A stretch of DNA of 64,000 nt from Aequorivita vladivostokensis. Lineage in GTDB: Bacteria > Bacteroidota > Bacteroidia > Flavobacteriales > Flavobacteriaceae. The DNA lies in assembly GCF_000952855.1 (NCBI RefSeq), contig NZ_JSVU01000001.1, positions 434,001 to 498,000 of the forward strand, in the 5' to 3' direction. The notes under the pieces are model-generated. The model made no database searches, was not told where the DNA came from, and saw only the letters and a list, made by a program, of their open reading frames with translations. The position numbers were made by a program, and so were the translations under genes. Below, piece after piece: positions 14,599 to 24,888 of this stretch (position 1 is its first letter; every line of letters starts with the position of its first letter).

Positions 14599-14645
14599 TA
14601 CGTCAATTGCCCTATTGTAAAAACTTTCGGTTTGGGTCAATTTTG
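14599..14645 (+). promoter_or_regulatory. Operator-promoter A of the two-component island
   Basis: Palindromic box TACGTCAATTGCCCTA (14599-14614) is followed directly by TTG (14615-14617), a 20-bp spacer and CAATTTTG (14638-14645), close to the -7 consensus. The lipoprotein gene starts at 14697. Four other sites in the island have the same layout. Confidence 0.7.
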
Positions 14646-14696
14646 CTTCAACATTAATCACGTATTCGCCTATAGCGGAATATTAAACCAAACATT

Positions 14697-15224
14697 ATGA
14701 AAACATTTAAAAAATCTATTTTAGTATTAATGGCAGTAGTTGCCGTAAGTTTAACTTCTTGTAAAAAAGATGATGATGGAGGCGATGACCCACAAGGCAG
14801 CACTGGAACATTTACTGCAAAAGTTGATGGAAACAACTTTTCAGGAATGCAAGGAACAGTAGTGGCTAGGGTGACCAATTCTGGTGTAGGACAAGCGATT
14901 GCCATTAGTGGTGGAACAGAACAGTCTGAAAACCTACAAATTATTCTCACGAGTTTTGATGGCGAAGGTAGCTATGATTTGAATTTTGTTAATATTGGCA
15001 CATATAGTTTTTTACCAGATCCAAGTAACCCAGATCCTAATACAGTAGTTGTTTATTCAACTGTTGGAACCGGACAAGGAAACAATGGTACGCTAAACAT
15101 TTCTAGTTACGACGGAAATACAATTAAGGGTACGTTTAATTTTACTGGTTATAATTTGAATAACACTAGTGAGAGTGTTTCAGTAACCGACGGCCAGTTC
15201 AATATTGAAGTGACCAATCAGTAA
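14697..15224 (+). CDS. DUF6252-like lipoprotein
   Basis: A 175-residue lipoprotein. The signal peptide MKTFKKSILVLMAVVAVSLT ends in a lipobox with Cys at residue 22, followed by an acidic stretch (KKDDDGGDDPQG). The mature part, beginning 'FTAKVDGNNFSG', is a beta-rich domain resembling the DUF6252 family ('GTFNFTG' and 'VTDGQFNIEV' near the end). Function is unknown. It is a single-gene unit: operator-promoter A lies upstream and a good intrinsic terminator follows at 15238-15260. Sharing the operator with the adjacent kinase and regulator genes suggests it is a target of that system. Confidence 0.75.
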   Translation: MKTFKKSILVLMAVVAVSLTSCKKDDDGGDDPQGSTGTFTAKVDGNNFSGMQGTVVARVTNSGVGQAIAISGGTEQSENLQIILTSFDGEGSYDLNFVNIGTYSFLPDPSNPDPNTVVVYSTVGTGQGNNGTLNISSYDGNTIKGTFNFTGYNLNNTSESVSVTDGQFNIEVTNQ

Positions 15225-15237
15225 TAAATATTTAAAG

Positions 15238-15260
15238 AAAATCTCTATGTTGAGGTTTTT
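15238..15260 (+). terminator. Intrinsic terminator after the lipoprotein gene
   Basis: AAAATCTC, a 6-base loop, then GAGGTTTT followed by T: an 8-bp stem with one G-U pair, 13 bp after the stop codon. Confidence 0.75.
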
Positions 15261-15315
15261 ACGTGGGCCGGGGGCGAAACGTGAGTTTTTCCTCCGGTTT
15301 TACTTTTCGTGTAAT

Positions 15316-15362
15316 TAAGGCAATTGCCTTATTGTTTGAATCTCTTGCGATTTTAAACTTTG
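15316..15362 (+). promoter_or_regulatory. Operator-promoter B of the two-component island
   Basis: A perfect 16-bp palindrome, TAAGGCAATTGCCTTA (15316-15331), is followed by TTG, a 20-bp spacer and AAACTTTG (15355-15362). The downstream gene starts at 15395. Confidence 0.75.
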
Positions 15363-15394
15363 TAAAACTATTTAATTTATAAAACCAAGCTATT

Positions 15395-16891
15395 ATGAAA
15401 ATAAACTTACTTAAACCAACATTGTACTTGTTATGGTCAATAATGCTTACTGCCACTGTAAACGGCCAGTGGCAACAAAAAGGTGCTGATTTTTTTGGGT
15501 CTGAATTTGATTCAACGGGCAGCTCCATTTCTGTTAGCGCCGATGGAAACACGCTGGCCGTAGGAGCATACCAGGCCGATCCCAACGGGTCGTCATCGGG
15601 AAATATGCGCGTATTTTCGTGGAACGGGAATCAATGGGCGCAGCGAGGCCAAACCCTTGAGGGAGAGGCTGCCAACTATAAATTTGGATACAGCGCGTCC
15701 TTGACGCCCGATGGAAACAGGTTGGCCGTCGGGGCCACGGGTGCTATGGCCGGTGGAAGAGCTTCTGCCGGACACGTAAAGGTTTTTGAGTGGAACGGCA
15801 CCTCCTGGCAACAACTCGGACCTACCATTGGCGGAGTTCTCAACGATATAAATTCAGGTTGGTCTGTGTCGTTAGACGAAAATGGCAATACCGTGGCCAT
15901 TAGTGCCCCACTTGCCGGACCTTCGGGAACACAAATTGGGGAAGTGCGGGTCTATACCTTTGATGGTACCGACTGGAACCAAATGGGCAGTGCCATTGAA
16001 GGTGAGAATCAATATGATTATATGGGCCATTGCATAAAACTTTCCGCAGATGGAACAAGAGTGGCCATCGGCACGCATATGAACGACGATTTCGCGACGG
16101 ATGCGGGCAGTGTTGATATCTACGAATGGAACGGCACCCAATGGAACCAGATGGGCAATAGGCTTACCGGTACTGAAGAAACCGATTGGTTTGGAAAATC
16201 GTTGGATTTTTCGGCTGATGGCAATCGGCTGGCAATAGGAGCTTGGCACCACGGAGCCGACCGCGGGCAGGTACGCGCATTTGAATGGGACGGAACGCAA
16301 TGGCAACAGCTGGGCCAAGCCATAGATGGAGAAAATGACAACTATAATTTTGGTCATTCCGTAGCCCTATCGGCAGACGGCACCACCCTTGTCGCTGGGG
16401 CAGTACAGCATCCGGGCGGAGGAGATTTGCGTGGCCAAACCCGCGTATATAGGTTGGTTGGCAATACTTGGTACCAAGTAGATAGCGGGATCAACGGTCT
16501 GGTTGACGGCGACTTTGGGGGCTACAATACTGCCATTTCTGCCAGCGGCGAAACCGTGGTTATTGGCATGCCCCTTTCTTCTTCCCACGGAACATTCACG
16601 GGTGCCGTGCGTGTTTATGAGGGTGGAGTCTTGGGAACTCAGGACCTCCTTGCCGACAAGAAAATACTGGCTTTCCCGAACCCAACCCATGATCGGTTAA
16701 TGTTGAAACTGCCAAAAACTTCTGAAACTATAATGGTTGCGCAATACAGCTTGCTGGGGCAGGTAGTGGCAAGTAATAGGTATAATGACATGGCTGAAAT
16801 TTCATTTGAAATGCAGGGTACGCCCGGCTTGTATTTGGTTTACGTTACGACCCGCTTTGGGGTACAATCATTTCAGATACTGAAAAATTAA
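15395..16891 (+). CDS. Secreted FG-GAP-like repeat protein with T9SS type A sorting domain
   Basis: A 498-residue exported protein. The signal peptide covers about residues 1-24 (MKINLLKPTLYLLWSIMLTA). The body is about seven repeats of roughly 50-60 residues built on 'G.S.S.S.DG..LAVGA' and 'G.VRV.EWNGT.W.Q.G', which predicts a beta-propeller of the integrin/FG-GAP kind. The last 80 residues form a T9SS type A sorting domain (FPNPTHDRLMLKLP ... GLYLVYV). It should therefore be moved across the outer membrane by the type IX system and displayed or released. Operator-promoter B precedes it. No terminator lies directly after the stop codon. Confidence 0.85.
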   Translation: MKINLLKPTLYLLWSIMLTATVNGQWQQKGADFFGSEFDSTGSSISVSADGNTLAVGAYQADPNGSSSGNMRVFSWNGNQWAQRGQTLEGEAANYKFGYSASLTPDGNRLAVGATGAMAGGRASAGHVKVFEWNGTSWQQLGPTIGGVLNDINSGWSVSLDENGNTVAISAPLAGPSGTQIGEVRVYTFDGTDWNQMGSAIEGENQYDYMGHCIKLSADGTRVAIGTHMNDDFATDAGSVDIYEWNGTQWNQMGNRLTGTEETDWFGKSLDFSADGNRLAIGAWHHGADRGQVRAFEWDGTQWQQLGQAIDGENDNYNFGHSVALSADGTTLVAGAVQHPGGGDLRGQTRVYRLVGNTWYQVDSGINGLVDGDFGGYNTAISASGETVVIGMPLSSSHGTFTGAVRVYEGGVLGTQDLLADKKILAFPNPTHDRLMLKLPKTSETIMVAQYSLLGQVVASNRYNDMAEISFEMQGTPGLYLVYVTTRFGVQSFQILKN

Positions 16892-16904
16892 ACCAACGGT
16901 AAAG

Positions 16905-16951
16905 TAAGGCAATTGCCGTATTGAAACATAGATTTTAAAATGGCAATTTTG
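16905..16951 (+). promoter_or_regulatory. Operator-promoter C, driving the candidate small RNA
   Basis: Palindromic box TAAGGCAATTGCCGTA (16905-16920), then TTG, a 20-bp spacer and CAATTTTG (16944-16951). No annotated gene follows before the terminator at 17098-17131. Confidence 0.7.
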
Positions 16952-16956
16952 TTTTT

Positions 16957-17131
16957 AAATGTATGATCCAACGAAAAGGAAGGCGGCCACAAAACTTTGT
17001 GGGGATAGGGTGTAGGGGCCGTCTGAATTTTCAGGAATTAAGTAGCTAACTAACCTAAAAAACCGCTGATGAAGTGAGGAGCATTGGCAGTTTTTAAAAA
17101 CCCTTGGGCTACCCCGGGGTTTATTTTTTTT
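16957..17131 (+). ncRNA. Candidate structured small RNA between the T9SS protein and kinase operon
   Basis: The 307-bp gap 16892-17198 holds operator-promoter C, this region, and operator-promoter E. Transcription from C would start near 16957 and end at the terminator 17098-17131. The segment is structured: an 8-bp stem pairs 16981-16988 with 17017-17024 (one G-U) and encloses ACAA/TTGT, and a second stem pairs AAAAACCGC (17057-17065) with GCAGTTTTT (17088-17096), with one mismatch. Two micro-ORFs exist (ATG at 16959, 18 codons; ATG at 16963, 28 codons), neither recognisable. A small RNA, or a micropeptide mRNA, are the two readings. No Rfam family is recognised. Confidence 0.45.
17098..17131 (+). 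terminator. Intrinsic terminator of the candidate small RNA
   Basis: AAACCC, TT, GGG, loop CTA, CCC, CG, GGGTTT, then ATTTTTTTT: a GC-rich stem with one internal mismatch pair and an 8-T tail. It separates promoter C from promoter E. Confidence 0.8.
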
Positions 17132-17177
17132 ACGGCAGTTACCCTATAAATTTATAAGGAAAGAAAATGTATCTTTA
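17131..17177 (+). promoter_or_regulatory. Operator-promoter E, driving the kinase operon
   Basis: TACGGCAGTTACCCTA (17131-17146), a weaker palindrome, is followed by TAA, a 20-bp spacer and TATCTTTA (17170-17177). The small membrane protein gene starts at 17199. Confidence 0.6.
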
Positions 17178-17198
17178 GTTTTTTAAAAGTCTCGGACT

Positions 17199-17441
17199 AT
17201 GGGTTTAACAATTATATTCAGCAGCTTGCTCGTTTTTGGTGTCCTCGGGCTCTTGGGGTGGCATTATAAAAGGAAACAGGAGGCCACTGCACAGTTCCGA
17301 GGTCGGATGATCCAATTGGAAAATACTTTTAAGTTACACGGAACACAACTTCTTTTTCGGGAACAAGCGCTTTTGAAATATAATTTTCTGAAGTACAACT
17401 TATCGGCTGCGCTGCTTGAGCAACCCGAAATCCAATTATAA
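17199..17441 (+). CDS. Small single-pass membrane protein upstream of the histidine kinase
   Basis: An 80-residue protein with an N-terminal hydrophobic helix (residues 2-21, GLTIIFSSLLVFGVLGLLGW) followed by a basic stop (HYKRKQE) and a helical tail. It is not a recognised family. It ends 5 bp before the kinase start codon, so the two are almost certainly co-transcribed from operator-promoter E and probably translationally coupled. The position suggests an accessory of the kinase, but this is inference. Confidence 0.6.
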   Translation: MGLTIIFSSLLVFGVLGLLGWHYKRKQEATAQFRGRMIQLENTFKLHGTQLLFREQALLKYNFLKYNLSAALLEQPEIQL

Positions 17442-17446
17442 GTTTT

Positions 17447-19246
17447 ATGCAGAACAATCTCCTCCAGCTTTTGCTGCTTCTGTTGGTTTGGAATCTTCAT
17501 TCACAGGATATTCAACACCAGAAGGCCAAAATCGATTCCATAAATAAAATCTATGTGCAGGGGCTCAACCTCCCGCAGGATTCCATAGTTGCCATTTTTA
17601 AAAAAAACCTAAACGACGCCCGTAAAATAGAATATAAACTGGGCCAGGCTGATGCCCATTCCCAGTTGAGTTTGGTGTATGGATATCAAGGTAATTACGA
17701 AGAAAGCACCAAGCAAGCAATTAATGGGATCAAGATTTATGAGAAACTCGGCAAAATGGAGCGTGTGGCAGATTATTATGCGGAATTGGGTTATAGTATG
17801 AAATATCGCGATTTGCCCAAGGCCCTTAGCTATATGCAAAAAGGGAAAAATATTGCAGAAGCCAATAATTTTGAGAATGAACTCAAGGATATTTATAATA
17901 ATTACGGGGTTTTAAAGGAAATAAATAAGGAGCTGGACAGTGCCCTGTTCTATTTTGAAAAGGGCTTGGAGATAAAGCTGAAACGTAACGATACTATTGG
18001 CATTCCCTACAGTTGGAGCAATATGGCCGGGACATATGGTTTACAGGGAAATTTTTCTAAATCGAGGGAATATTTCAACAAATCGCTTCAGCAACGTTTA
18101 CAGTGGGCAGATTCGTTGGGGATTGCCGAAAACTATACCCAATTGGGAGAAGTTTTTATTGCTGAGGAAAAATGGAGCAATGCAATTCCGCTAGTCCATA
18201 AGTCGTTGCCTATTTCAAAAAAGAAACAATATCAAAACCTCACCCAGTATAACTACAAGCTGCTTTCTGATATCTATAAGAAATTAAAAAATACAGATTC
18301 GGCACTATTTTATTTTGAACAATATGCGGCAGTAAAGGACAGCGTTCACGGATTAAAGGTACAGGAAAGAATTGCGGCCTTGAACGTGGAATTTGATACC
18401 GAAAAAAAACAAAACGAAATCCTACAACAACGCGCCCAGCTGGCAGAAAAAGATTTGGAGGTGCGCCGAAAAAACACTTTTATTTTTGGCAGTCTTGGGC
18501 TGGCTTTGGTTCTCGGGCTGCTGGGCTATTTACTCTATAACCAGCAGAAGCTCAAAAACCGCCAACTTCAAAAAGAAGGCGAGTTAAAAACGGCTTTGGC
18601 AAAAATTGAAACCCAAAATAAACTGCAGGAACAGCGTTTGCGAATTTCTCGCGATTTGCACGACAATATTGGGGCGCAGCTCACTTTTATAATTTCCAGC
18701 ATTGACAACCTGAAATTCGGCTTTACGGACATTGGTGAAAAACTTGGCAACAAACTTAGCGGAATCAGTGCCTTTACCTCGCAGACCATTTATGAACTGC
18801 GCGACACTATTTGGGCGATGAACAAGGAAAACATAACTTTTGAGGACCTGCAGGCCCGAATCGCCAATTTTATTGAGCACGCCAAAAACGCTTCGGAAAA
18901 AACCGAATTCTCCTTTAATATTGAAGAGAGTGTTGATGAATCGCATGTCTTCTCATCTGTAGAGGGAATGAATATTTACAGAATCATTCAAGAGGCGGTA
19001 AACAATTCATTGAAATATGCCGACGCCGACGAAATCGAGGTGAATATTTCAAAAGGAGATGGGCGGTACCTAATTGAGATTACCGATAACGGAAAAGGAT
19101 TCGAACCGGAAACGATCGTTATGGGCAACGGGCTAAACAATATGAAAAAACGCGCTCGGGAGATAGGTGGTACACTTCAACTTAAATCCTCTAAAAAAGG
19201 AACTTCTATATTGTTGAGATTGGCGAAACCATTTATGGAGAAATAA
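17447..19246 (+). CDS. TPR-containing sensor histidine kinase (HisKA_3 type)
   Basis: A 599-residue membrane kinase. It has an N-terminal signal or anchor (MQNNLLQLLLLLLVWNLHSQ), a periplasmic array of tetratricopeptide repeats at about residues 60-310 (e.g. 'ALFYFEKGLEIKLKRNDTIG'), a transmembrane helix near 345-365 (FIFGSLGLALVLGLLGYLLY), a coiled linker, the HisKA_3 dimerization domain with phospho-acceptor His405 in 'SRDLHDNIGAQL', and a HATPase_c domain (N box EAVNNSLKYA, G1 box DNGKGF). It should sense a periplasmic protein or signal through the TPRs and phosphorylate the LuxR-type regulator 82 bp downstream. It is preceded by a co-transcribed small membrane protein. Confidence 0.92.
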   Translation: MQNNLLQLLLLLLVWNLHSQDIQHQKAKIDSINKIYVQGLNLPQDSIVAIFKKNLNDARKIEYKLGQADAHSQLSLVYGYQGNYEESTKQAINGIKIYEKLGKMERVADYYAELGYSMKYRDLPKALSYMQKGKNIAEANNFENELKDIYNNYGVLKEINKELDSALFYFEKGLEIKLKRNDTIGIPYSWSNMAGTYGLQGNFSKSREYFNKSLQQRLQWADSLGIAENYTQLGEVFIAEEKWSNAIPLVHKSLPISKKKQYQNLTQYNYKLLSDIYKKLKNTDSALFYFEQYAAVKDSVHGLKVQERIAALNVEFDTEKKQNEILQQRAQLAEKDLEVRRKNTFIFGSLGLALVLGLLGYLLYNQQKLKNRQLQKEGELKTALAKIETQNKLQEQRLRISRDLHDNIGAQLTFIISSIDNLKFGFTDIGEKLGNKLSGISAFTSQTIYELRDTIWAMNKENITFEDLQARIANFIEHAKNASEKTEFSFNIEESVDESHVFSSVEGMNIYRIIQEAVNNSLKYADADEIEVNISKGDGRYLIEITDNGKGFEPETIVMGNGLNNMKKRAREIGGTLQLKSSKKGTSILLRLAKPFMEK

Positions 19247-19251
19247 ACTAA

Positions 19252-19298
19252 TACGGCAAATGCCCTATTTTCCGGTTGTCTTTTTTAAGCTAATTTCA
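19252..19298 (+). promoter_or_regulatory. Operator-promoter D of the response regulator gene
   Basis: TACGGCAAATGCCCTA (19252-19267), TTT, a 20-bp spacer and TAATTTCA (19291-19298) keep the geometry of the other four sites. A second possible promoter, TTG (19276-19278), 21 bp, TATCTTTA (19300-19307), overlaps it. The regulator gene starts at 19328. Confidence 0.65.
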
Positions 19299-19327: not shown

Positions 19328-19975
19328 ATGTTGAAACTCGCCATTGTTGACGATAATTCCTTCCTTATCCACGCCGTAAAGGAGAAACTTTCTTTTTTTG
19401 AAGATGTTTCGGTCAAGCATACCTCGTTGAACGGTAGTGAGCTGCTTACAAAATTGGAGGAAAACCACAACCTAGATTTAATATTGATGGATATTGAAAT
19501 GCCCGTTCTCAACGGCATCGAAACCACGCAAATCGTTAAGCAGAAATATCCACACATCAAAATAATCATGCTTACGGCTTTTGACAATGACGAACATATT
19601 TTCAACGCCATAAAAGCGGGTGCGGACGGGTATTTGCTGAAGGAAATAAACCCAAAAGATTTATACGACGGAATTTTGGAAACCTTAAATGGCGGCGCGG
19701 CGATGAACCCTTCCATTGCGATGAAAACCTTGAAACTATTGCGAAACCCCATAGATATTCAAAACCTGAAAGACAAGGAGGAAATCTCCCTTTCCACCCG
19801 CGAGGTTGAGGTTTTGGAGCAGCTCAGCAAAGGTTTAAGTTATACGGTAATTGCAGATCATCTTTTTCTTTCGCCCAGCACGGTCCGAAAACACATTGAA
19901 AATATCTACAAAAAACTACAAGTGCACAGCAAGATTGAAGCGGTGCAAAAGGCGAAAAATCATAATATAATTTAA
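19328..19975 (+). CDS. LuxR/NarL-family response regulator
   Basis: A 215-residue response regulator. The receiver domain spans residues 1-120 with the acidic pair Asp8-Asp9, phospho-acceptor Asp55 in 'LILMDIEMPVLNG', and Lys in 'GYLLKEI'. The LuxR-type helix-turn-helix is at about 148-210 (LSTREVEVLEQLSKGLSYTV, then SPSTVRKHIENIYKKL). It pairs with the HisKA_3 kinase just upstream. Such regulators bind short palindromes as dimers, making it the best candidate to recognise the five boxes at 14.6-19.3 kb, one of which precedes its own gene. That assignment is inference. Confidence 0.93.
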   Translation: MLKLAIVDDNSFLIHAVKEKLSFFEDVSVKHTSLNGSELLTKLEENHNLDLILMDIEMPVLNGIETTQIVKQKYPHIKIIMLTAFDNDEHIFNAIKAGADGYLLKEINPKDLYDGILETLNGGAAMNPSIAMKTLKLLRNPIDIQNLKDKEEISLSTREVEVLEQLSKGLSYTVIADHLFLSPSTVRKHIENIYKKLQVHSKIEAVQKAKNHNII

Positions 19976-21828: not shown

Positions 21829-23082
21829 TTACAAGTTGAATGCTTCCTTCACTTTATCAACATAATCCAACTTCTCCCAAGTGAAAAGCTCCACTTCTTT
21901 TGTAATTTGTCCATTGTACGGGCTTTCAAAAGTTTTGGTAATCACTTCAGGATTTCTTCCCATATGTCCATAAGAAGCCGTTTCGGAATAGATAGGGTTT
22001 CTCAATTTCAACCTTTTTTCAATTGCGGCAGGACGCATGTTGAATATTTCTGAAACCTTTTTAGCGATTTCGCCGTCAGAAAGTTTTATCTTTTTAGAGT
22101 TGTAAGTGTTCACCAAAATTGAAGTTGGTTCTACTACACCAATTGCGTAACTAACCTGAACTAAAATTTCGTCTGCAACACCTGCAGCAACTAAGTTTTT
22201 TGCAATATGTCGCGCTGCATAAGCCGCACTTCTATCAACTTTACTCGGGTCTTTTCCGCTAAAAGCACCGCCACCGTGCGCGCCTTTTCCGCCGTACGTA
22301 TCAACGATGATTTTTCTTCCAGTTAAGCCCGTATCTCCGTGTGGGCCACCAATTACGAATTTCCCCGTTGGATTTATGTGGTAGGTAATATCGTCATTAA
22401 ACAATTTCTGAACGTAATCCGGAAGTTGTTTTTTAACGCGTGGAATCAAAATTTCCGTGATATCCTTTTTGATTTTCGAAAGCATTTTTTCGTCTTCATC
22501 AAAGTCATCGTGCTGTGTGGAAACAACAATTGCAACAATTTTCTGCGGAATATTATCGTCGCTGTATTCAATGGTTACCTGGCTTTTCGCATCGGGGCGC
22601 AGATATTTTATTGCCGAATCCTCACGGCGCAACGCAGCCAATTCAATCAAGATTTTATGCGAAATATCCAAAGCCAACGGCATATAGTTCTCGGTTTCCT
22701 TGGTAGCATAACCAAACATCATCCCTTGATCGCCAGCGCCTTGTTCTTCTTTATTCGCGCGGTCCACACCTTGGTTAATATCCTGTGATTGTTCGTGAAT
22801 CAATGAAATAACTCCGCAGCTATCGCCACTAAATTTGTATTCGCCTTTTGTGTAACCAATCTTGTTAATTACGTCACGTGCAATATTTTGCACATCAAGG
22901 TAGGTATTGCTTTTCACCTCGCCTGCCAAAACAACTTGTCCGGTGGTGACCAACGTTTCGCAAGCTACCTTACTTTCAGGGTCGAAAGCCAAAAAATTAT
23001 CTAAAAGCGCATCGCTAATTTGATCCGCAACTTTGTCTGGGTGTCCTTCAGAAACGCTTTCCGAAGTAAATAAATAGGCCAT
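21829..23082 (-). CDS. metK: S-adenosylmethionine synthetase
   Basis: MetK makes SAM from methionine and ATP. The 417-residue protein is full length and carries the family signatures '[18 protein letters not shown]' near residue 8, '[12 protein letters not shown]' near 115, and the Gly-rich '[19 protein letters not shown]' near 272. It is transcribed away from the methionine operon. Its leader of about 120 nt contains a SAM-II type aptamer (23148-23194), so the product should shut off its own synthesis. A minus-strand promoter is at 23210-23238. Confidence 0.98.
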
Positions 23083-23147
23083 AAAATGGTTTTAAAATTT
23101 ATAGTTTTCAGAAGATTTGACGAAAGCGCCGAAGGGAAGTTTTCACT

Positions 23148-23194
23148 GCCTTTAGCATTTTTTATTGAGGTTGCAATCAGTCAAATCTTTCCTC
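23148..23194 (-). promoter_or_regulatory. SAM-II riboswitch in the metK leader
   Basis: Reading the minus strand: P1 arm GAGG (23194-23191), then AAAGATTTGACTGATTGCAA, the P1 partner CCTC (23170-23167), AATAAAAAATGCTAAAGGC. The order and conserved blocks (GAUUUrAC, AUUGCA, AUAAA, GCUAAA) fit the SAM-II pseudoknot consensus as I remember it. A 10-base sequence GTCAAATCTT (23121-23112, minus) can pair exactly with AAGATTTGAC inside the aptamer (23189-23180), giving a mutually exclusive fold. No clear terminator follows, so control may be translational. Confidence 0.75.
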
Positions 23195-23209
23195 TTAATT
23201 TGTCTTGGG

Positions 23210-23298: not shown

Positions 23299-23328
23299 CA
23301 CTCACAAAGTTCAAATCTTTACTGAAAT

Positions 23329-23464
23329 GTTATCAAGAAAGGCCGAGGGAATAGACCCTATGACGCCTTAGCAACCCTTAAATTCCCGCGCAGGTGGGAA
23401 TCTCATTTAAGAAGGTGCTACATTCTACAACAATCCTGAAAATTCAGAATTGATGATAGATAAC
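23329..23464 (+). promoter_or_regulatory. SAM-I (S-box) riboswitch upstream of metY
   Basis: All S-box hallmarks are present in order: P1 GTTATC (23329-23334) pairing with GATAAC (23459-23464); ATCAAGAAAGGCCGAGGGA; the P2/pseudoknot region with CCCTATGACGCC; GCAACC; a variable P3 hairpin (TTCCCGC/GTGGGAA); GGTGCTA and TTCTAC. A hairpin CAATTTC/GAAATTG (23472-23491) with a T-rich tail follows. Its loop TTATC can pair with GATAA of P1, which would give a switch between P1 plus terminator and antiterminator. It should repress metY-metX-hom-metH-metF when SAM is high. Confidence 0.95.
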
Positions 23465-23592
23465 GACAAGACAATTTCTTATCTGAAATTGCTTTTCAAT
23501 TATTCTTTTTAACATTTTTCTATTAAAGTACGTCGCAAGGCGCATTTTGGCTTTTGTTTTAATTTTTTTATTAACTCAAAAAAACTAGAAAA

Positions 23593-24888
23593 ATGAGTAC
23601 ACAAAACAATTTCGCAACAAACTTGTTGCACGCAGGACACGATGTAACCGCCAACGGAGGAACCAGAGCGGTGCCAATTTACCAAACTTCCAGTTACGTT
23701 TTTAAAAATAGCGACCACGCTGCAAACCTGTTCAATCTTTCCGAACCCGGATTTATTTATTCGCGCCTTAACAATCCAACTTGCGATATTTTGGAAAAAC
23801 GTTTGGCGGCTTTGGAAGATGGTATCGGCGCGGTTACCACTGCATCGGGCGCATCTGCCATTTCCACAACATTGCTGACACTGCTTCGCGCGGGCGACCA
23901 TATTGTGGCGTCCAGCAGTTTGTACGGTGGAACTTTCAATTTGTTAAACGTTACTTTACCGCGTTTGGGAATTACAACCTCGTTTATCGATGGTTCAAAT
24001 CCTGAAAACTTTGGAAAAGCCGTAAAAGAAAATACTCGCGCAATTTTCATCGAATCCCTCGGAAATCCGAAGTTGGATGTTTTGGATATCGAAGCGATTG
24101 CCGCTGAAGCAAAGGCGAATAAAATTCCACTAATTGTGGATAATACGGTCGCTTCTCCGGCTTTGTTGAACCCTATTGCGCACGGTGCAAATATTGTAAT
24201 CCATTCCCTCACAAAATACATCAACGGAAACGGGACAACACTGGGTGGTGCAATTATTGACGCAGGAAATTTTGATTGGGCCAACGGAAAATTCCCTGAA
24301 TTTACCGAACCCTCTGCAGGTTATCACGGTTTAGTTTATTCCGAGGTTTTAAAGGAAGCCGCTTTTATCGCAAAAGTACGCCTTGAGGGGCTTCGCGATT
24401 TCGGCGCGGCTTTGAGCCCGTTTAGCGCTTTTCAGATTATTCAAGGTTTGGAAACTCTGGAAATTAGAATTAAAAAACACAGCGAAAATGCGCTGAATAT
24501 CGCCAAATGGCTTCAAAGTAGAGAAGAAGTAGCTTGGGTGAATTACCCCGGTTTGGCGGATAATCCGTATTTCAACCTCGCCCAAAAATACCTTCCCGAA
24601 GGACAAAGTGGCTTGGTTACTTTTGGCGTAAAAGGAGGCTTCGAAGCTGCGAAAAAAGTAGTTGATAATGTGAAGTTATTTTCACTTTTAGCAAATATAG
24701 GCGATACGAAATCCTTGATAATTCACCCTGCTAGCACAACGCACCAACAGTTAAACGAAGCAGATCAAACGGCCTCGGGGGTAAGTCAAGATTTAATCAG
24801 ACTTTCCGTTGGCTTGGAAAATATCGACGATTTAAAGACAGATTTGGAACAAGCTTTCAAGAGCGTTTTTAAAGAACAATTGGTTTAG
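23593..24888 (+). CDS. metY: O-acetylhomoserine aminocarboxypropyltransferase (sulfhydrylase)
   Basis: A PLP enzyme of the Cys/Met metabolism family that makes homocysteine from O-acetylhomoserine and sulfide. The 431 residues match the MetY length. The PLP-binding lysine is Lys208 in 'SLTKYINGNGTT'; other signatures are 'RLNNPTCDILEKRLAALEDG' and 'HPASTTHQQL' near residue 376. It is the first gene after the SAM-I riboswitch and precedes metX, which makes its substrate. The ATG at 23593 follows about 130 nt of AT-rich leader after the aptamer. Confidence 0.96.
   Translation: MSTQNNFATNLLHAGHDVTANGGTRAVPIYQTSSYVFKNSDHAANLFNLSEPGFIYSRLNNPTCDILEKRLAALEDGIGAVTTASGASAISTTLLTLLRAGDHIVASSSLYGGTFNLLNVTLPRLGITTSFIDGSNPENFGKAVKENTRAIFIESLGNPKLDVLDIEAIAAEAKANKIPLIVDNTVASPALLNPIAHGANIVIHSLTKYINGNGTTLGGAIIDAGNFDWANGKFPEFTEPSAGYHGLVYSEVLKEAAFIAKVRLEGLRDFGAALSPFSAFQIIQGLETLEIRIKKHSENALNIAKWLQSREEVAWVNYPGLADNPYFNLAQKYLPEGQSGLVTFGVKGGFEAAKKVVDNVKLFSLLANIGDTKSLIIHPASTTHQQLNEADQTASGVSQDLIRLSVGLENIDDLKTDLEQAFKSVFKEQLV

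Follow-up and report, generated by a model that had tools for sequence, protein, structure and literature searches.

Palindromic boxes abutting flavobacterial promoters are predicted operators of a NarL-type regulator and precede genes for surface proteins and a conserved RNA

Results

A 64,000-nucleotide stretch of the Aequorivita vladivostokensis genome (3.27 Mb; assembly GCF_000952855.1, contig NZ_JSVU01000001.1, positions 434,001 to 498,000; hereafter the window, in which coordinates are counted) contains a plus-strand locus in which five variants of a 16-bp palindrome accompany genes for a sensor histidine kinase and a LuxR/NarL-type response regulator. We analysed this locus computationally, with the box, its register, the promoter classes, their conservation, the co-occurrence with the regulator and the structure of an RNA all read from sequence. 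Box 1 (TACGTCAATTGCCCTA, 14599..14614) is followed directly by TTG (14615-14617) and then by a -7 element, CAATTTTG (14638-14645), in the predicted promoter of a 175-amino-acid lipoprotein of the DUF6252 family (14697..15224; PF19765, 32.6 bits, cut-off 27.2; lipobox recognised by eye). Box 2 (TAAGGCAATTGCCTTA, 15316..15331), also followed by TTG and with the -7 element AAACTTTG at 15355-15362, stands in the promoter of a secreted 498-amino-acid FG-GAP repeat protein (15395..16891). Box 3 (TAAGGCAATTGCCGTA, 16905..16920), again with TTG and with CAATTTTG at 16944-16951, precedes no listed gene; a conserved stretch lies there instead, within a predicted small RNA (16956..17131) whose conserved part (17018-17131) forms three hairpins, the last being a terminator. 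Box 4 (TACGGCAGTTACCCTA, 17131..17146) lacks the TTG, has TATCTTTA at 17170-17177 and would drive an operon of a small protein (80 amino acids, 17199..17441) and a tetratricopeptide repeat (TPR) sensor histidine kinase (599 amino acids, 17447..19246) with HisKA_3 and HATPase_c domains. By eye the small protein has a single membrane helix at the N terminus and a tail of polar residues; it matched no Pfam family, and its place before the kinase is conserved while its sequence varies. Box 5 (TACGGCAAATGCCCTA, 19252..19267), likewise without TTG and with TAATTTCA at 19291-19298, stands in the promoter of the 215-amino-acid response regulator (19328..19975; Response_reg and GerE domains), whose DNA-binding domain carries S184.

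A preliminary description of this DNA had placed the five boxes at these positions with a common spacing of box, 3 bases, 20 bases and -7 element; every box is present as described, and the -7 octamers begin at 14638, 15355, 16944, 17170 and 19291. Allowing up to three mismatches to TAMGGCAAWTGCCNTA, the window holds 19 matches against a mean of 7.8 in shuffled sequence, 1 of 100 shuffles reaching 19, and ten of the 19 are the five boxes counted on both strands. With up to two mismatches to the consensus of the preliminary description, the whole window yields the five boxes only. The same description had called the product of 15395..16891 a repeat protein exported by the type IX secretion system (T9SS): the repeats are borne out (PF14312, 67.3 bits), and the T9SS tail is weak, with PF18962 at 21.7 bits falling under the cut-off of 27.

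The box, written as TAnGnCAnnTGnCnTA, was found in all 28 Aequorivita genomes. In these genomes the pattern TAVGKCADHTGCCBTA gave 118 forward and 111 reverse matches (229, palindromic matches counting on both strands) against 2 and 1 (3) for the reversed pattern. The regulator is encoded in all 27 other genus genomes searched (89-100% identity) and, at 69-95% identity, in the best 80 of 542 relatives' loci. We surveyed sites in 105 loci, almost all of them belonging to one family: the window, 27 loci of the genus (L054-L080), one each from another genus of that family (L081) and another family of the order (L082), and 75 named loci (L122-L196); L117-L121 were excluded from the site survey and from the register and residue-184 counts because they duplicate genus genomes already included. 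TAnGnCAnnTGnCnTA fits 223 distinct sites in the 105 loci, of which 3 lie inside open reading frames (ORFs) of at least 100 amino acids, so at regulator loci the boxes avoid coding DNA and are not scattered at random over it. They are kept beside the orthologous genes for kinase and regulator, within the genus as well as outside it, and the compact local cluster first described gives way to a widespread regulon, as box and register recur in many related genera.

A same-strand ORF start follows within 160 bp at 187 of the 223 sites, and at 165 of these 187 a -7 core (NANNTTT) lies exactly 24 bases past the box, compared with 4 of 186 on the opposite strand; the -7 core played no part in the pattern that selected the 223 sites. 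With a looser palindrome frame, 244 sites had the core at spacing 24, whereas every other spacing between 10 and 49 had 1-24. In Flavobacterium psychrophilum the element TAnnTTTG sits at -12 to -5 (accessible text of PMC9723704), and by this measure the box would span -51 to -36, with its centre at about -43.5.

The promoters in this survey are of two classes that share one operator, a correction to the preliminary description. Those of the lipoprotein, propeller and FG-GAP genes have TTG directly after the box in 75 of 79 cases and are all in register (79/79). Those of the small protein-kinase operon and of the regulator have it in 4 of 77, are in register in 59 of 77 and have a -7 element ending in A in 64 of 77. 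The remaining 31 promoters (30 of other genes, one of a kinase without small protein) include 8 with TTG and 27 in register. Thus, the same operator stands on output promoters with a good -33 triplet and on regulator promoters without one.

Both domains of the regulator score above their cut-offs (PF00072, 85.7 bits; PF00196, 65 bits), placing it in the NarL/FixJ (LuxR-type) family, and D55, which we take to be the phospho-acceptor aspartate, is present in 105 of 105 aligned regulators. The kinase encoded immediately upstream (PF07730, 35 bits; PF02518, 50.7 bits) is of the HisKA_3 type, and we infer that the two proteins form a pair. Eight genus loci (L055, L056, L059, L063, L067, L068, L075 and L079) encode a further TPR histidine kinase, its gene being placed before those of the small protein and the main kinase. 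To connect regulator and box beyond the genus, we compared 199 genomes of the same family, of which 52 encode the regulator (at 1e-50) and 25 hold the strict box TACGDCADHTGHCGTA. The strict box occurs in 19 of the 52 genomes with the regulator and in 6 of the 147 without it (Fisher, 2.6e-8), and the reversed-pattern control is not associated with the regulator (5/52 versus 9/147, p 0.53). The window's own genome, with its less symmetric boxes, is not picked up by the strict pattern, and the co-occurrence is therefore probably understated.

A second set of loci (Bizionia, Winogradskyella, Algibacter and others) carries TACGTAATTC(A/G)TCGTA or a similar box in the same place and register, and there the recognition helix of the regulator begins S-x-G-T-(V/I)-R-K instead of S-P-S-T-V-R-K. 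Type A boxes read GGCAnnTGCC and type B boxes TAATTCATC. We compared the residue at position 184 with the boxes, counting in-register boxes only. Regulators with S184 (63 loci) go with 192 boxes, of which 185 have a CA..TG core and 33 are strictly TACG..CGTA, and regulators with G184 (37 loci) go with 51 boxes, of which 14 have the CA..TG core and all 51 are strictly TACG..CGTA; a single A184 locus has one box, which shows neither of these two patterns. With Aequorivita removed, strict boxes number 29 of 94 for S184 and 51 of 51 for G184. R187, K188, H189 and E191 are invariant over the 105 regulators. Residue 184 is thus a candidate specificity switch, as judged from this comparison. In a receiver-domain tree that kept 8 of the 28 Aequorivita rows and excluded L082, the Flavobacterium rows L176/L194 and L193 fall apart from the main G184 clade. 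Box differences and co-occurrence alike back the earlier proposal that one regulator serves the boxes.

By eye, the products encoded after the inspected boxes look exported or membrane-bound, with the exception of the regulator. Across lineages the outputs include repeat proteins of unrelated families that form beta-propellers or resemble them (FG-GAP in the window, PQQ_2 in its kin, PD40 with OmpA in L172, RCC1 with a T9SS tail in L182); an FGE-sulfatase-like protein in L173 is a further output. Mean identity within Aequorivita is 93% for the regulator, 81% for the kinase half and 60% for the periplasmic half of the kinase, 49% for the lipoprotein and 43% for the small membrane protein. Moreover, the periplasmic sensor half is swapped in 6 of 26 Aequorivita kinases, where it is 26-31% identical to that of the window while the kinase half and the regulator stay alike. 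Sequence comparison here shows a near-constant regulator with exchanged sensors and outputs.

The candidate small RNA after box 3, proposed in the preliminary description, is real: it has three hairpins with strong covariation and occurs in 28 of 28 Aequorivita genomes. Its start at 16956 is predicted from the -12 to -5 position of TAnnTTTG. A model-free alignment of 11 sequences folds into the three hairpins, with double changes in 8 of 26 pairs. In a 33-row alignment, itself fitted to the model, 93.2% of cells pair, compared with 22-51% once the partners are slid, and 18 of the 26 pairs show double changes; four doubtful rows of an earlier alignment, A2 (L062 minus, L078 minus, L068 753 and L141), are absent from A3. 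Among 47 listed matches of the RNA model, 28 are the locus matches, one strong match per genus genome (51-132 bits), and 19 are weaker (at most 44.3 bits), two of which (L244 and L245) were inspected. The RNA lies within 10 kb of the regulator gene in 26 of the 28; it is 18 kb away in G009, and in G007 it is on a separate small contig together with the lipoprotein gene. No Rfam family reached its gathering score in the RNA stretch, and the three matches at E<=5 are all far below their cut-offs. A search of the genome for perfect 11-base partners of the RNA's loop gave the RNA itself as the sole match, and CsrA (PF02599) and Hfq (PF17209) gave 0 matches in this genome (controls matched in 3 and 5 of 14).

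A propeller gene is present in 14 of the 28 genus genomes, and in 14 of 14 the structured RNA starts at its stop codon and has the mRNA terminator at its end, as is the class feature of small RNAs derived from 3' untranslated regions (3'UTRs). All 14 propeller-less genomes have kept the RNA, 13 with an in-register box before it; the exception, G025, has no box upstream of the RNA. Presence of the propeller gene changes at least five times on the tree, five being the fewest on an uncertain tree because 13 of 30 inner branches are open and ten rows are poorly filled. Outside the genus, a first model placed the RNA behind the propeller gene in L122, L123, L124, L126, L127, L132 and L134 (31-55 bits), and a second model, built with those loci and run on 76 loci, added weaker matches in L136 and L133. 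We had considered box 3 a relic of a lost propeller promoter, and this idea was dropped when the alignment revealed the conserved RNA downstream.

A second RNA-like stretch with the same loop, GAAGTGAGGA, and a terminator lies in the window's own genome at G000:C1:207183-207300 (L245), and another at G026:C20:466715 (L244). Weak matches of the RNA model in several kin may be relatives of the RNA. On the Bizionia/Algibacter/Psychroserpens side (many loci, L139-L190), the 3'UTR of the propeller gene has its own, different recurring stretch, AATCTTGTTGTTGAGATT, as well as a terminator.

Among the matches listed for the genus genomes, the pattern also falls outside the locus. Some of these sites lie in coding genes; one in the window's own genome, C1:158880, was rejected as a regulon site because it is inside a fabG-like gene. 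At G000:C1:72836 (L083 6837) and in L199, L201, L202 and L208-L214 a box stands about 95 bp before the gene of a 258-amino-acid exported protein, in at least 11 Aequorivita genomes. Although intergenic and conserved, C1:72836 has its -7 element out of register, and we treat it as a lead only. Outside boxes are mostly out of register, and a regulon with this geometry would therefore mostly be the locus itself.

Also in the window, two riboswitches stand back to back: a SAM (S box) riboswitch (23327-23466, plus strand) upstream of a plus-strand gene starting at 23593, and a SAM-II riboswitch (23141-23200, minus strand) upstream of a minus-strand gene (21829-23082) that looks metK-like by eye.

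Discussion

We propose that the response regulator encoded at 19328-19975, activated through the TPR kinase upstream, uses the five boxes as its operators, and assign this reading a probability of about 0.82. Binding, phosphotransfer and activation are proposed from knowledge of the family and by analogy with NarL at yeaR-yoaG and ogt. The TPR half of the kinase would sense an envelope or outside cue and the kinase would phosphorylate the regulator, a dimer of which would bind the 7-2-7 palindrome centred at about -43.5, abutting -33, and recruit polymerase much as NarL does at its single-site promoters. At the output genes (lipoprotein, propeller, small RNA) the dimer would meet a good -33 TTG and TAnnTTTG, and at the kinase and regulator genes, without the TTG and mostly with TAnnTTTA, it would bring about positive autoregulation. 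The output of the system would be exported surface proteins together with a conserved 3'UTR-derived RNA.

Several results weigh against this proposal or its parts. By the stricter rule NANNTTT, four of the five window boxes are in register and the regulator's own -7 element, TAATTTCA, is off by one base; across the survey, too, the regulator's own promoters are the least regular, with 30 of 46 in strict register. No box with up to two mismatches precedes the kinase operon or the regulator in L078, and the stretch of L082, whose regulator is 47% identical, holds no box. A box also occurs in six genomes that lack a regulator match at 1e-50, about the control rate. When 17 box stretches from other places in the genomes of kin were inspected, one (L205) proved to be in strict register, with no ORF start within 345 bp, and ten, together with one in the window's own genome, precede the same 258-amino-acid exported protein out of register. 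As to residue 184, an independent-pairs test against box type was not significant, with few independent events, and on the receiver-domain tree, with roughly half of its inner branches open, the residue changes at least five times.

The boxes of six of 147 regulator-less genomes, and the conserved box upstream of an unlinked gene, would suit a different transcription factor, encoded elsewhere, for which the two-component pair is just one target. We consider this improbable, as 6/147 is near the reversed-pattern rate of 9/147, the regulator adjoins the boxes in the fetched loci, and the box type differs where the start of the recognition helix differs, including in L176/L194 and L193. Nor does the closeness of box to -33 in itself tell activation from repression, so that the regulator could bind and repress, for example by blocking polymerase until phosphorylated. 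The box, however, ends immediately ahead of the -33 triplet, leaving both the -33 and the -7 element uncovered, the kinase and regulator promoters rarely have the TTG (4/77), which suits promoters in need of help, and the matching NarL geometry activates (accessible text of PMC7419079); we consider repression improbable as well. Activation by the adjoining regulator thus stays the reading that we prefer.

What the RNA does is a separate matter. Tentatively, we suggest that it, rather than the propeller protein, may be the lasting output of the two-component system, a 3'UTR of a secreted propeller mRNA that became an independent small RNA, on the regulator's own promoter, in genomes that lost the coding sequence, while sensors and surface proteins were exchanged around a near-constant regulator and RNA. 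It is also conceivable, if somewhat doubtful, that the RNA is a mere leftover, what remains of a deleted propeller gene at its 3' end, terminator included, with no function of its own: wherever the gene is present (14 of 14 genomes) the RNA forms its 3'UTR, the third hairpin is a terminator, no perfect 11-base partner of the loop turned up at any other place in the genome, and propeller-less G025 has no box before the RNA. Against a leftover, the RNA is kept in 14 of 14 propeller-less genomes, 13 of them with an in-register box, the propeller gene changes in presence at least five times on the tree, and the two upstream hairpins, which termination should not require, show covariation (double changes in all 5 pairs of the middle stem and in 7 of the 8 pairs of the first stem). 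An independent small RNA, if that is what it is, would be a testable case of a 3'UTR outliving its coding sequence.

To our knowledge, few Flavobacteriaceae regulators have a mapped operator. Here sequence comparison over many genera yields an operator and its register, the probable regulator, a pair of promoter classes and a difference in specificity, so that many genomes could be annotated from a single binding experiment. With residue 184 as a candidate switch, regulator and box moreover form a natural experiment in how NarL-type regulators change their sites. No description of the motif, the regulon or the RNA was found in open-licence PubMed Central (PMC) papers, among the matches listed, in keeping with the preliminary description, which knew of no regulon with this motif; the system is not of a wholly unknown kind, as the motif is a NarL-like 7-2-7 repeat.

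Among known systems, VraR and other LuxR-type response regulators of solved structure share the two domains of the regulator, VraR being its best PDB sequence match (7ve6, 2.7e-30), and the operator, kinase and targets of VraR differ from those here. The motifs SM1-SM6 of F. psychrophilum share the TAnnTTTG -7 element but are sigma-factor motifs, and the main text of that paper, in its accessible part, makes no mention of "palindrom", LuxR or a response regulator (PMC9723704); the accessible part of an Aequorivita paper likewise has no mention of LuxR or histidine kinase (PMC10663628). Small RNAs derived from 3'UTRs in Bacteroides thetaiotaomicron, as far as the accessible accounts of them go, resemble the RNA described here in lying at an mRNA end and using the mRNA's own terminator, whereas the present RNA persists without the coding gene and has its own regulator box in 13 of 14 such genomes. 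Closest in kind is NarX-NarL of Escherichia coli, with a receiver-GerE regulator (NarL structure 1a04 matches the window regulator at 1.2e-27), a HisKA_3-type kinase and sites made of inverted 7-mers around 2 bp, with TAC...GTA ends, just upstream of -35. In the accessible text of PMC7419079, a single 7-2-7 NarL site just upstream of -35 suffices at yeaR-yoaG, and NarL site II of ogt lies at -44.5; the architecture of such single-site promoters, a 7-2-7 site abutting -35/-33 at fixed spacing, is found here with 165 of 187 promoters in register. The NarL heptamer, in turn, is TACYYMT (accessible text of PMC4886647), whereas the half-site here is TACGGCA, which sets these boxes outside the NarL regulon, and the system further differs from NarX-NarL in its flavobacterial -33/-7 promoter, in a TPR sensor in place of a nitrate sensor and in an output of exported surface proteins and RNA. 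The locus thus represents not a NarL regulon but a new regulon of a known regulator kind, with an unusual RNA output.

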